Part shown: one piece after another, positions 22,325 through 33,834 of the stretch
Layout: the number at the start of each line of letters is the position of its first letter
How positions within the stretch are numbered: position 1 is the stretch's first letter
DNA from: Acidobacteriota bacterium
GTDB taxonomy: Bacteria > Acidobacteriota > Terriglobia > Bryobacterales > Bryobacteraceae
Direction of reading: 5' to 3'
Assembly (NCBI GenBank): GCA_026394055.1
Contig: JAPKYZ010000097.1
Span: 1 to 64,000, forward strand
Length of the DNA: 64,000 nt
The notes under the pieces: generated by a model
The model's input: the letters and a program-made list of their open reading frames with translations, nothing else
Told to the model about the DNA's origin: nothing
Database searches by the model: none
Position numbers and translations under genes: made by a program

Positions 22325-23602
22325 ATGGCTGCAACTTCCCAGATCCCCTCCGCGGCGACTGCCCCGGTCAACCGAGTCCCGTATGCGGCGGCGGCCGTAT
22401 TCATGCAGGTCCTGCTCGGCATCATCTATGCCTGGAGCGTCTTTCGCGGCCCGCTGGCTACACTACACGGATGGTCCAAGGCGCAGACCATTGCTCCGTA
22501 TCGGTATTCATTGCTGGCCTTTGCGGCGGGCATGATTGTGGCGGGCTTCTGGCAGGACCGGCGGGGGCCTCGCGTCGTGGCCTCAGTCGGCGGCCTGCTG
22601 CTGGCCGCCGGTTGTGCGCTGGCGGGGCTGATCGGCCAAACGCTGGAGGGCCTGATTGTGGCCTATGGCGTCGTGGCGGGCGTCGGTGTGGGGTTTGCTT
22701 ATGTGACGCCCATTGCCACGTGCGTCAAGTGGTTCCCCGACAAGCGCGGCTTCATTGTCGGCCTGGCGGTGATGGGCTTTGGTGTGGGGCCCTTGCTCTT
22801 TGGGCCGCTGCTCGAAGCGCTGATCGGCAAGGACCCGGCGCAGTTGGGCGAGACGATTCCGCGGACGTTCTTCATCCTGGCGGGTATTTTTCTGATCGGC
22901 GTCGTGGGTGCCGCGCAGTTCTTCCGCGTACCCCCGGCGGGCTATCGGCCATCGGGTTGGACCCCGAAGGCGGCGGCCGCGGGCGACGCTGCGTTTACCA
23001 CCGGCCAGATGCTGCGGCAGTGGCAGTTCTACGCGCTGTGGGTGATCTACTTTCTGGGGACCTCAGTCGGCCTCACCGCCATTGGCGAGGCCTCGCCGTT
23101 GTTGCAGGAAATGGCCAAGACCACTGCCATCATGTCGGCCGGGGTCGCGCTGGGTGTGATGAGCATCTTCAACGGACTGGGGCGTCTGGTGTGGGGTAGC
23201 GTTTCTGACCGGCTGGGCCGCCAGCCCGCTGTGCTCGGCATGGCTGCCGTGTCGGCGCTGGCGTGCCTGGGCTTTCTGCGGCAGGCGGACGGCTTTGTGA
23301 TGCTGCTGACCGGGCTCTGCCTGGGCGCCTTTGCCTATGGTGGCTACCTGGCGCTGATGCCGTCGTTCACGGCCGACTTCTTTGGAGCCAAGTATGTCGG
23401 CGCCAACTACGGCCTGCTGTTCTCTGCCTGGGGGCTGTGCGGCTTTCTGGTGCCGGGCTATTTTGCCGGGGTGATGGATAAGGCGCGGGCGGCGGGCAAT
23501 CTGGCGGGCGGCTATCAGGAGGTCTACACGACGCTGGCGGTTCTGGCTGGCGTGGGCGCTGCGGTGGCGGCCGTGCTGCGGGCTCCGGCGAAGCGGGCTT
23601 AG
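22325..23602 (+). CDS. MFS transporter, OFA (oxalate/formate antiporter-like) family
   Basis: A 425-residue transporter with about 12 hydrophobic segments. The segment LLGIIYAWSVFRGPL near the N-terminus is typical of the OFA subfamily, which moves small monocarboxylates or dicarboxylates. The MFS loop motif appears as WQDRRGPRVV and again as SDRLGRQPAVLG. The start is ATG 22325 with an AAGGCGG stretch directly upstream; a frame-open ATG at 22259 adds a non-hydrophobic tail that I reject. The substrate cannot be assigned. Confidence 0.85.
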   Translation: MAATSQIPSAATAPVNRVPYAAAAVFMQVLLGIIYAWSVFRGPLATLHGWSKAQTIAPYRYSLLAFAAGMIVAGFWQDRRGPRVVASVGGLLLAAGCALAGLIGQTLEGLIVAYGVVAGVGVGFAYVTPIATCVKWFPDKRGFIVGLAVMGFGVGPLLFGPLLEALIGKDPAQLGETIPRTFFILAGIFLIGVVGAAQFFRVPPAGYRPSGWTPKAAAAGDAAFTTGQMLRQWQFYALWVIYFLGTSVGLTAIGEASPLLQEMAKTTAIMSAGVALGVMSIFNGLGRLVWGSVSDRLGRQPAVLGMAAVSALACLGFLRQADGFVMLLTGLCLGAFAYGGYLALMPSFTADFFGAKYVGANYGLLFSAWGLCGFLVPGYFAGVMDKARAAGNLAGGYQEVYTTLAVLAGVGAAVAAVLRAPAKRA

Positions 23603-23653: not shown

Positions 23654-23763
23654 AGCCCCATGCGTCAGTTTGGGGCTTTCTGCTGGTCCCGAAAGAAGCC
23701 CCAGGTTGACGCATGGGGCTGGGGGCTGGTCCCGAAAGAAGCACCAGGCTGGCGCATGGGGCT
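23654..23763. repeat. Palindromic repeat array, locus A (three 24-nt units)
   Basis: Three 24-nt units start at 23654, 23697 and 23740, so the period is exactly 43 bp, with two 19-nt spacers (TTCTGCTGGTCCCGAAAGA and GGGGGCTGGTCCCGAAAGA). Unit 1 reads AGCCCCATGCGTCAG followed by TTTGGGGCT. Units 2 and 3 are inverted relative to it. Each unit is itself a small palindrome, with AGCCCCA/TGGGGCT ends in unit 1. The array lies between the 3' ends of the convergent transporter and lytic transglycosylase genes, 5 bp from the latter's stop codon. The same unit recurs at 27348 and 33726. Confidence 0.9.
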
Positions 23764-23768
23764 GGGGG

Positions 23769-24422
23769 CTATTGCGGCGCTTGCGTCTCGAGGGACGCTT
23801 TGCGGTACTGGCGCAACACCCGGTCGACGTAGGTCTGGGTTTCCGTATAGGGTGGGACCCCGTTGTATTTTTTGACGGCCCCGGGACCGGCGTTGTAGGC
23901 GGCCAGGGCGCGACGTACCTGGTCCGGTTGATCCTGGTATTGGATCAGCAGATCACGCAGCAGTTTGGCGCCGGCTTCCGCATTCTCGCGGGCATCGTGC
24001 GGGTTGGCGCCCAAGGCTTTCGCGGTGGAGGGCATCAGCTGCATCAAGCCGATGGCACCCTTGGGGGACACGGCACGCGGGTCAAAGGCGGATTCGGCGC
24101 GAGCGACCGATTCGACAAACGCGGCCGGAAGCCCGTGCAGCTCCGCCGCGGCTCGCACCAGTTCGCGGGGGGACTTGGGTGCTTCCACGGGCGGGGTGGC
24201 GGCAGCAGGCGCGGGTTTCGGCGCCGGGATGGCTGGGTCGTCGGGTAGTTGCTCAAACGACGTCACCGCGGACTTCGGCAGCACCGTTTGGCCGCTGGCG
24301 GCATGGAGAATCACTTCTTCGCCGCGCACCTCATGCCGGTCGATCCGCAGCGTAAAGCCGTTCGACAACACCGCCATCTCGGCGGCCACCATGGTGGCGA
24401 ATTGGACAAAAGTCAACAGCAC
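23769..24422 (-). CDS. Lytic transglycosylase, SLT domain (family 1)
   Basis: A 217-residue protein that would cleave peptidoglycan glycan strands with formation of anhydro-MurNAc. The SLT domain (about 85-205) has the catalytic glutamate in ARAESAFDPRAVSPKGAIGLMQLMP split here as E110 and the following GLMQLMP loop, plus AYNAGPGAV. The N-terminal 60 residues include a weak hydrophobic stretch and a small beta-rich unit, then a Pro/Ala-rich linker (about 63-82). The start is GTG 24422 with GAGGG 4 bp upstream. Confidence 0.9.
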   Translation of the reverse strand: MLLTFVQFATMVAAEMAVLSNGFTLRIDRHEVRGEEVILHAASGQTVLPKSAVTSFEQLPDDPAIPAPKPAPAAATPPVEAPKSPRELVRAAAELHGLPAAFVESVARAESAFDPRAVSPKGAIGLMQLMPSTAKALGANPHDARENAEAGAKLLRDLLIQYQDQPDQVRRALAAYNAGPGAVKKYNGVPPYTETQTYVDRVLRQYRKASLETQAPQ

Positions 24423-27208: not shown

Positions 27209-27230
27209 GCGCCGGGGAATTGGGACACCG

Positions 27231-27341
27231 CTCCGTTGGAGACGCTCTCCAAGCTATTGATTCTATTGAGAGAGCAGAAACGTCTTCATCACTGTTGCGG
27301 CCCGCTGGGCCATGCTTACTCCCTTGCGGTCGCGGCTCAGA
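27231..27341. repeat. Direct repeat R2, copy 1
   Basis: It begins CTCCGTTGGAGACGCTCTCC and runs to the GGTCGCGGCTCAG-like end. It shares most positions with the copy at 27481-27594, with scattered substitutions and a few one-base indels. It contains a CTCTC...GAGAG inverted pair and a GGCCCGCTGGGCC palindrome. Confidence 0.8.
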
Positions 27342-27347
27342 ACGTAA

Positions 27348-27412
27348 CCCCATGCGTCAGCTTGGGGCTTGTCCGGTAACCGCACAATAGCCCCAAGCTG
27401 ACGCATGGGGCT
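27348..27412. repeat. Perfect 22-bp inverted repeat, locus B of the palindromic family
   Basis: The left arm (27348-27369) begins CCCCATGCGTCAG. The right arm (27389-27410) is its exact reverse complement and the loop is the 19-nt TGTCCGGTAACCGCACAAT. Arms and loop length match loci A and C. As RNA it would form a very stable stem, so a role as terminator or mRNA 3' stabiliser is plausible. Confidence 0.92.
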
Positions 27413-27480
27413 GATCGAAGTTGACCATCAATCGAGATCCTCCGCTACCCATGGCCGAGGTGGGTTGCGAAAGCAGACCA

Positions 27481-27594
27481 CTCCGTTGAAGGCGCTCTCC
27501 AAGCTATTGATGCTATTGAGAGCGCAGAAAACGTCTTCATCGCCTATTGCGGCCCGCTAGGCCATGCTTACACCCTTTCGGTCGCGGCTCGGAA
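27481..27594. repeat. Direct repeat R2, copy 2
   Basis: The second copy of the repeat at 27231-27341. Here the inner inverted pair is perfect (GCGCTCTC...GAGAGCGC, about 27492-27525), and the GGCCCGCTAGGCC palindrome is also kept. The better pairing suggests this copy is closer to the ancestral form. Confidence 0.8.
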
Positions 27595-32233: not shown

Positions 32234-33727
32234 ATGGAATCTGCTTGCGTCCGACATACCGACATGCCTGGAACGTCGAAGCTGTATTCCGACTTTCTCT
32301 ATCATCCTGAACGGGTTACAGCGTTTTACCCGTCGCTGCCGGCGCGTCTGGCGGACGGCCTGACAGTGGACTTTCCTGACGCTCGCCGCCAAGCGATGGC
32401 TGCGGCACTGGCGGAAATAAACCCCGGTTCAGCGCTACTCGATCAATTTGCCCAACCCGGAACCGCCGTAGTGGTCACCGGGCAGCAGGTGGGCTTGTTC
32501 GGCGGACCGCTCTACACCGTGTTCAAAGCGCTCACCGCCGTGCAGCTGGCCCGCCAGTTGACGGCGCAAGGAACGCCCGCGGTCCCGGTGTTCTGGGTGG
32601 CCACTGAAGATCACGACTTTGAAGAGATCAACCACACCTGGACGCTGGACGGCGATCGCAAACCGCTGAAGCTGACCGCCCAGGGTGACCATCAGCCGCA
32701 ACAGCCCGTCGGTCCGGTGCACATCACGGAGCTGCCCGAGATCTCTGACGAGATGGTGCGCCGCCACTATCGGGTGGGCGCCACCTTTGGTGAAGCGTTC
32801 ATCGGCCTGGTGCGGGAGCTGCTGGGCGATCACGAAGTACTCTTCCTTGACCCGCTGCGCCCTTCCATTCGCCAGATCGCCGCGCCGTTTCTTGCTGCCG
32901 CCGCCGCCCGCTCGAATGAGCTGAATGAGCTGGTGATCGCGCGCGGTAAGGAATTGACCGCGGCGGGCTATCACGCCCAGGTGCTGTTTGATGGCAAAGG
33001 CTCCTCGTTGTTTTTCGCGCTGGAGGGCGGGCGCCGCAAGCAACTAAAGGCGGCGGATGTGACATCGTTCGCCGGTGCCCCGGAGCAGCTTTCGCCCAAT
33101 GCTCTGTTGCGTCCGGTGATGCAGGACTACCTGCTGCCCACGGTGGCCATGATCGGTGGCCCGGCCGAGATCGCGTATCTGGCGCAGTCCTCGGTGCTCT
33201 ATGAGGCCTTGCTGGGGCGGCAGCCGGTGGCCGTGCCTCGCGCCGGGTTCACGCTGCTCGATTCCCGCGCGGCCAAGCTGATGGATCGCTACCAGTTGCG
33301 CTTGCCGGACCTGATGCAGCCGGAGGCGACGGTGCGGGAGCAGATCGCCGCTCACTTAGCGCCGCCCGCGCTCCAGCAGACCTTCACCGATGCCGCGGCC
33401 CAATTGCAGACGACGCTCGACCGCGTGGAGCACGCGCTTGGCGGGTTCGACCGGACGCTCGTGGACGCCTTTGCGACCAGCCGCCGCAAGATCGCGCACC
33501 AGCTGGCCAAATCCCAGGCCAAGGCCGCCCGCGAGCTGATGCGCCGCAGTGAGCGCGAACAAGCCGATTCCAGCTACCTGATCAACGAGATCTTCCCTCA
33601 CCGGCATCTGCAGGAGCGCTTCTATTCCATCCTGCCGTTCCTGGCTGCCCATGGGCCGGACCTGGTGGGCCGGGCCTACGACAACATCCACGTCGACTGC
33701 TTCGACCACCACGTCCTGGCGCTTTAG
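32234..33727 (+). CDS. bshC: Bacillithiol biosynthesis cysteine-adding enzyme BshC
   Basis: BshC adds cysteine to GlcN-malate in the last step of bacillithiol synthesis. The 497-residue protein has the family segments VVTGQQVGLFGGPLYTVFKA (about 80-99) and FWVATEDHDFEEI, a Rossmann-like core, and a charged helical C-terminal part that forms the dimer coiled coil. The ATG start gives the N-terminus expected for acidobacterial BshC (ESACVRHTDMPGTSKLYSDF). bshA and bshB are not in this window. The stop codon overlaps the start of palindromic locus C. Confidence 0.92.
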   Translation: MESACVRHTDMPGTSKLYSDFLYHPERVTAFYPSLPARLADGLTVDFPDARRQAMAAALAEINPGSALLDQFAQPGTAVVVTGQQVGLFGGPLYTVFKALTAVQLARQLTAQGTPAVPVFWVATEDHDFEEINHTWTLDGDRKPLKLTAQGDHQPQQPVGPVHITELPEISDEMVRRHYRVGATFGEAFIGLVRELLGDHEVLFLDPLRPSIRQIAAPFLAAAAARSNELNELVIARGKELTAAGYHAQVLFDGKGSSLFFALEGGRRKQLKAADVTSFAGAPEQLSPNALLRPVMQDYLLPTVAMIGGPAEIAYLAQSSVLYEALLGRQPVAVPRAGFTLLDSRAAKLMDRYQLRLPDLMQPEATVREQIAAHLAPPALQQTFTDAAAQLQTTLDRVEHALGGFDRTLVDAFATSRRKIAHQLAKSQAKAARELMRRSEREQADSSYLINEIFPHRHLQERFYSILPFLAAHGPDLVGRAYDNIHVDCFDHHVLAL

Positions 33728-33834
33728 CCCCATGCGTCAGCTTGGGGCTTGTTCGGGGTCCGTGAAATAGCCCCAAGCTCACGCATGGGACATACCGGGG
33801 TCCGTGCAATAGCCCCAAGCTCACGCATGGGGCT
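33726..33834. repeat. Palindromic repeat array, locus C (three 24-nt units)
   Basis: Unit 1 (33726-33749) starts AGCCCCATGCGTCAG and begins inside the bshC stop codon. Inverted units follow at 33769 and 33811, spaced by TGTTCGGGGTCCGTGAAAT (19 nt) and TACCGGGGTCCGTGCAAT (18 nt). Unit 3 differs from the reverse complement of unit 1 at one position. The spacers are related to each other and to those at loci A and B. The array lies between convergent bshC and an alpha/beta hydrolase gene. Confidence 0.92.

Follow-up and report, generated by a model that had tools for sequence, protein, structure and literature searches.

Among the short palindromic repeats of bacteria, REPs, REPINs and the atypical repeats of class 3 Y1 transposases are already known. 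Class 3 TnpA-Y1 genes have atypical REP-like hairpins, about 600 of them in Solibacter usitatus, for which a foot CnGA was reported (Quentin et al., 2018, PMC6006769). In Pseudomonas fluorescens, REPINs are doublets of REPs, and tandem REP arrays were also described (Bertels and Rainey, 2011, PMC3116915). Di Nocera et al. (2013, PMC3733652) deal with two REP superfamilies, GTAG and CGTC, and with a group of acidobacterial Y1 transposases, TIRYT, whose genes are flanked by repeats. Also, inverted pairs of the Neisseria uptake signal (DUS) act as rho-independent terminators (PMC2397512). Of the known kinds, the one nearest to the repeat described here, named F1, is that of the atypical repeats around class 3 Y1 (HuH) transposases.

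Structure of the array at locus A

The window is a stretch of 64,000 nucleotides and forms part of a 5.38-Mb assembly of 107 contigs, 91% complete, from an uncultured genus of Acidobacteria. The source genome is designated G000, its two congeners G001 and G002, and G051 represents another genus (g8). Locus A contains three imperfect palindromes of 24 nt in the order +, -, -, the starts of which lie exactly 43 nt apart: unit 1 at 23654-23677 (+ strand), unit 2 at 23697-23720 (- strand) and unit 3 at 23740-23763 (- strand), with 1, 2 and 3 mismatches, respectively, to the consensus AGCCCCATGCGTCAGCTTGGGGCT. They are separated by two 19-nt spacers (23678-23696 and 23721-23739). The flanking genes, whose products were named from their translations, are convergent: an MFS-type transporter gene on the + strand (22403-23602) ends 51 nt ahead of the array, and a lytic-transglycosylase-like gene on the - strand (23769-24422) ends 5 nt past it. 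These coordinates and matches bear out the sequence-only reading as to the three units, the two spacers and the 43-nt period between convergent genes. The unit order and the hairpin fold agree with its description of the first unit as inverted relative to the next two, each being a small palindrome. Each F1 unit forms a hairpin in which stems of 7 and 2 bp flank a T.T mismatch and a GTVA tetraloop closes the end; the RNA form of the consensus has -16.3 kcal/mol. The array as a whole folds much better than shuffles do (z-scores of -6.6 as RNA and -5.2 as DNA). At up to 3 mismatches, the 24-mer was found 8 times in the window and 0 times in 100 shuffles.

Unit 2 is the inverted partner of unit 1. 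Unit 3 derives from a 43-bp tandem duplication (23685-23770, two copies identical at 40/43 positions), which also produced spacer 2 out of spacer 1. At locus A, a REPIN, i.e., an inverted REP pair, has been enlarged by a 43-bp tandem duplication of the spacer and the second unit. The exact 43-bp period thus has two sources, as the spacing of units 1 and 2 is the one that inverted F1 pairs usually show and the spacing of units 2 and 3 results from the duplication. Spacer 1 starts with TTTCT right behind the hairpin of unit 1, which makes a terminator-like tail, and spacer 2 read on the - strand gives TTCTTT behind unit 3. In our opinion, locus A is very likely a duplicated REPIN of the F1 family, tied to class-3-type repeats and predicted to be a bidirectional terminator.

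Two other loci of the window carry F1 and, like locus A, lie between convergent genes. Locus B (27346-27412) is a single REPIN with a + unit at 27346-27369 and a - unit at 27389-27412. Locus C (33726-33834) is a REPIN with a third unit (+ at 33726, - at 33769, - at 33811) and shows a tandem duplication similar to that of locus A, with a period of 42 and 36/42 identical positions. The spacers had been regarded as related across the three loci. This holds for the short inner arms, T-rich beside one unit and A-rich beside the other, but not for the whole length: the spacers of different loci are alike mainly in the inner arms, as the positions beyond them carry little information. Locus B is itself nested in a larger repeat (27227-27594) consisting of two copies of an element of ~120 bp, 250 bp apart and ~90% identical. 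The ends of this element resemble an interrupted copy of F3, a sister repeat of F1 (ACCGCTCC...TTGCGGTCGCGGCTC), and relatives of it were observed elsewhere in the genome, on contigs C48, C105 and C54.

The F1 family among known repeats

A search of the whole genome for the unit had been proposed with the sequence-only reading, and it showed that F1 is not limited to three loci. With up to 3 mismatches allowed, the 20-nt core has 217 copies in the genome (1 for a reversed-pattern control), and 92 and 109 copies in the congeners G001 and G002 (control, 0). The family comprises more than 100 clusters in the genome. A survey of 1.64 Mb, partly chosen for holding the repeat, yielded 73 clusters, namely 43 +- pairs, 15 single units, 12 triples (+-- or ++-) and 3 other groups. 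Adjacent + and - units were spaced by 43 nt in 35 cases and otherwise mostly by 41-45 nt; the -+ order was encountered only once, between two pairs and at a distance of 114 nt. In REPINs, singlets would be expected to have diverged further than doublets; mean mismatches were 2.2 in singles and 1.05 in doublets, a difference short of significance (p = 0.09).

The consensus was built from 86 units in simple pairs. In these units the core is GCGT-V-AGC, with C, G or A and never T at position 13, and nYCA forms the foot beyond the stem. The inner arm is rich in T (0.99, 0.83, 0.50, 0.70 and 0.63 at positions 24-28). Position 13 (e.g., 23666 in the window) is the third loop base, so the loops are GTCA, GTGA or GTAA closed by C-G, in part GNRA-like; the sister families keep the same restriction against T at this base.

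REPs are extragenic palindromes of 20-40 bp in high copy number. As a palindrome of 24 nt in high copy number and extragenic position (41/41 clusters on eight contigs), F1 has the properties of a REP, and its clusters are mainly inverted doublets with conserved spacing (43/73, mode 43 nt), as in REPINs. F1 is almost certainly a REPIN-type repeat. The high copy number, the extragenic position and the inverted pairs also speak for the BIME/REP-like element that the sequence-only reading had envisaged. Its statement that no described element has this layout was, on the other hand, too strong, as REPINs and tandem REP arrays (PMC3116915) and class 3 atypical hairpins (PMC6006769) have been described. 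Within a limited literature search, with supplementary alignments outside it, we found no description of the F1 sequence, of the doublet form in this group, of the foot, of the terminator-like tails or of the contrast with sister repeats.

The class 3 system (PMC6006769) resembles the present one in its acidobacterial host, in a short HuH-Y protein whose motifs match closely and in hairpins of high copy number without GT[AG]G; here, related 24-nt hairpins bracket such genes. Unlike the class 3 repeats, F1 has the foot nYCA instead of CnGA, forms inverted doublets with terminator-like tails, and brackets no gene found in its own genus. The sister repeat F2 often has CTGA or CAGA ahead of GCC. 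With the REPINs of P. fluorescens, F1 shares two inverted REPs around a loop, a fixed geometry, a dispersed and intergenic distribution and occasional tandem arrays, whereas the REPs of that species are GTAG REPs associated with class 2 RAYTs, and their unit, apex and foot are unrelated to those of F1. Short palindromes, dimers and a preference for gaps that are convergent or unidirectional are common to F1 and the GTAG and CGTC REPs (PMC3733652). However, the unpaired GTAG at one foot of the former superfamily is replaced by nYCA in F1, and the latter carries a terminal unpaired CGTC followed by a stem of 8-9 bp starting with AT, whereas the CGTV of F1 is inside the loop.

Position at gene ends and terminator features

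Our own simple hexamer gene caller assigned 87% of the sequence to coding regions, at 0.83 genes per kb. The positions of F1 were tested on the window and seven large contigs, read nearly whole; one was included on account of its Y1 gene, and the others were known to carry one copy or more. On these eight contigs all 41 F1 clusters were intergenic, intergenic DNA representing 12%. The sequence-only reading had also called for the copies to be mapped against gene orientation, and F1 does respect gene ends: 28 of the 41 clusters lie in convergent gaps, 12 in tandem gaps and 1 in a divergent gap, against a convergent expectation of 17% of gaps (p = 7e-13) or 20% of intergenic bases (p = 4e-11). 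The median distance between F1 and the stop codon was 31 nt, and 51/68 distances were within 50 nt.

A unit was considered terminator-like when its hairpin was accompanied by 4 or more T within 7 nt. This applied to 95 of 148 F1 units, compared with 1/33 for F2 and 1/22 for F3 (2/55 together). On the same contigs, the F2 and F3 clusters were convergent in 7 cases out of 26, versus 28/41 for F1 (p = 0.001). F1 units present a GC-rich hairpin and a U tract on both strands, as in a predicted intrinsic bidirectional terminator. A consensus terminator scan of locus A returned 1 site versus 0.8 expected in shuffles, which counts against the terminator reading. Other terminator-like hairpins are not depleted from the convergent gaps holding F1 (12/28, versus 60/126 without F1), and the idea that F1 substitutes for other terminators was thus found unsupported. 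The specialised bidirectional terminator suggested from the window alone is plausible: the convergent enrichment and the U-rich tails, absent in the sister repeats, are in its favor, and it stands as a prediction from sequence. We lean slightly towards terminator activity of F1 in vivo, and the data suggest that F1 may have been co-opted as bidirectional terminators.

Y1 transposase, mobility and competing explanations

A search for a RAYT/TnpA-REP transposase gene, likewise proposed earlier, was successful in part: a single Y1_Tnp gene is present in the genome (contig C59, 130679-131170, 164 aa), and it is bracketed by sister repeats, not by F1. The protein scores above the Pfam cut-off and below the NCBIfam RAYT cut-off. 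Its motifs NHVH, WA and YVVEQQ differ by one residue, in the last motif, from the class 3 set (NHVH, W[TA], YV[VI][AENY]EQ), and the Y1 proteins of G001 and G051 have YVVEEQ but THVH; the putative class 3 assignment relies on these published motifs. Two direct 28-nt copies of F2, GAGCCGCGCGCGTMAGCAAGCGGT, bracket the gene in a REPtron-like arrangement (locus L031, 1292-2034, about 130.6-131.4 kb of the contig). F1-like units, AACCCCATGCGTAAGCGTGGGGAT, lie on both sides of the Y1 gene of G051. Around the class-3-type gene in G001 (locus L112, 180-1110, contig C100) there are copies of another related repeat, GAGCCGCGACAGCATGGAGCGGAGTGCC. No Y1 gene bracketed by F1 itself was found in the genus of F1, and no Y1 gene was detectable in G002, which is 98% complete and carries about 109 F1 copies. 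A link to class 2 RAYTs was considered and rejected, since in G055 (locus L118) a class-2-type gene has one F1-like unit nearby, on one side only.

Relatives of a three-protein alignment of the class-3 type were detected in 80 of 237 genomes of the family. Hairpins were scanned with a C-G[TC]VA-G apex and a 4-bp outer stem, a pattern made after some of the repeats were seen; 36 lay within 350 nt of 30 Y1 genes (20 kb) versus 6 in the remaining 63 kb of the same loci. Related hairpins are thus 19 times denser beside class-3-type Y1 genes than elsewhere in these loci. Across the aligned families the stem showed 13 cells with two-sided changes, versus 3.9 in shuffles, and a covariation score of 0.44 (no higher than 0.09 after sliding). 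Pair 9-16, an inner one that the scan leaves free, was CG in 7 cases, GC in 6 and UA in 1. Judging from sequence, F1 belongs by shape and apex to a set of several 24-nt REP families of the same bacterial family, other members of which bracket Y1 genes, the C-GTVA-G apex and a covarying stem being common to the set.

Comparison with the congeners gave information on turnover. The site of locus A is in both congeners a stretch of 55-62 bp with no trace of the repeat. The site of locus B is empty of F1 in G001 and G002 and has an F2/F3-like inverted pair instead, and the pair of locus C is present in G001 and degenerate in G002. Flanking matches between G000 and the congeners have a nucleotide identity of roughly 75-92%. 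Of 15 comparisons between G000 sites and congener DNA that had been obtained irrespective of the repeat, F1 was missing in 10 and present in 5. Turnover of F1 sites is substantial, gain and loss not being separable in every case, and the presence and absence at orthologous sites (10/15 empty) are as in mobile REPINs. A second sample, biased as its loci were fetched for holding F1 and therefore not used for rates, included many orthologous junctions with an F1 pair in two species and unalignable adjacent bases, which hints at conservation or conversion. At one locus of G002 (L305 on contig C3, orthologous to contig C48 of G000 at 27470), an F1 pair of G000 and G001 is replaced by ~250 bp of other palindrome-rich sequence, which contains CAGGCTGTCAGCCTG... 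and GCGGGACTTTCAGTCCCGC.

We propose that a class-3-type Y1 (HuH) transposase would have placed copies of the single-stranded hairpin doublet at new sites, either formerly or acting in trans, and F1 was probably spread by such an enzyme. Extra units would arise locally through slippage. Copies may persist in convergent gaps because each unit, read from the gene running into it, would present a GC-rich hairpin with U-rich sequence behind it, and the pair could act as a bidirectional intrinsic terminator. The main competitor of this scenario is a purely selfish REPIN, for which the convergent bias only reflects insertion at the least harmful places and the T-rich inner arms serve as a recognition sequence of the transposase rather than as a terminator tail. 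REPs elsewhere likewise favor unidirectional and convergent gaps near stop codons (PMC3733652), and other terminator-like hairpins are equally frequent in F1 gaps (12/28) and others (60/126). If insertion tolerance were the whole cause, however, the sister elements should show the same convergent bias, so that tolerance alone is disfavored: F2 and F3, which have no T tail, are convergent in 7/26 clusters and F1 in 28/41. A purely selfish REPIN appears to us quite possible, if short of probable. It is doubtful that the transposase-linked family has turned into genus-wide bidirectional terminators, persisting in G002 without a detectable Y1 gene and maintained by selection or gene conversion instead of transposition.

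Another alternative, in which F1 is a vertically inherited bidirectional terminator cassette that was never mobile and was kept alike by selection and gene conversion, would account for the shared pairs with unalignable adjacent bases in the repeat-selected sample and for G002 having no Y1 gene. It is improbable given that 10 of the 15 unselected comparisons differ in presence or absence and that a transposase gene of G051 is flanked by F1-like units. Inverted pairs that carry features of terminators and lie close to the ends of genes also resemble the inverted DUS pairs of Neisseria (PMC2397512), dispersed inverted repeats whose terminator role is a precedent for what is only predicted for F1; but that uptake signal has 10-12 nt, occurs as single copies too and has no link to a transposase. 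All 41 F1 clusters on eight contigs are intergenic, unlike uptake sequences, which are common inside genes too. This position, together with the length of 24 nt and the Y1 gene link of the repeat set, both of which fit REPs, makes an uptake-signal-like repeat very improbable. The probability of a CRISPR array, a known structured RNA or an assembly artefact is practically negligible. A regular repeat-spacer period at one locus does recall a CRISPR, but the unit orientation changes, the spacers are duplicated and the copies are dispersed; the sequence-only reading had also set this possibility aside. Rfam matches were sub-threshold, of microRNA type and attributable to chance only, and the same element is present in independent assemblies of the congeners.

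The preferred reading, a duplicated REPIN tied to class-3-type repeats, adds a REPIN-organized family to the poorly known group of class 3 HuH transposases, and a shared recognition apex, C-GTVA-G, is suggested. An internal comparison such as the present one is rarely available for REPs: related hairpin families coexist in one genome, and only the family whose tails are terminator-like accumulates in convergent gaps. The old question of selfish or functional REPs becomes testable by comparing F1 with its sister families.

MAGs containing the exact F1 unit are labelled Bryobacteraceae and Acidobacteria. Also, an exact F1 REPIN (locus L180, 6816-6880) was observed outside the lake genomes, in palsa_290, a MAG labelled Acidobacteriaceae.
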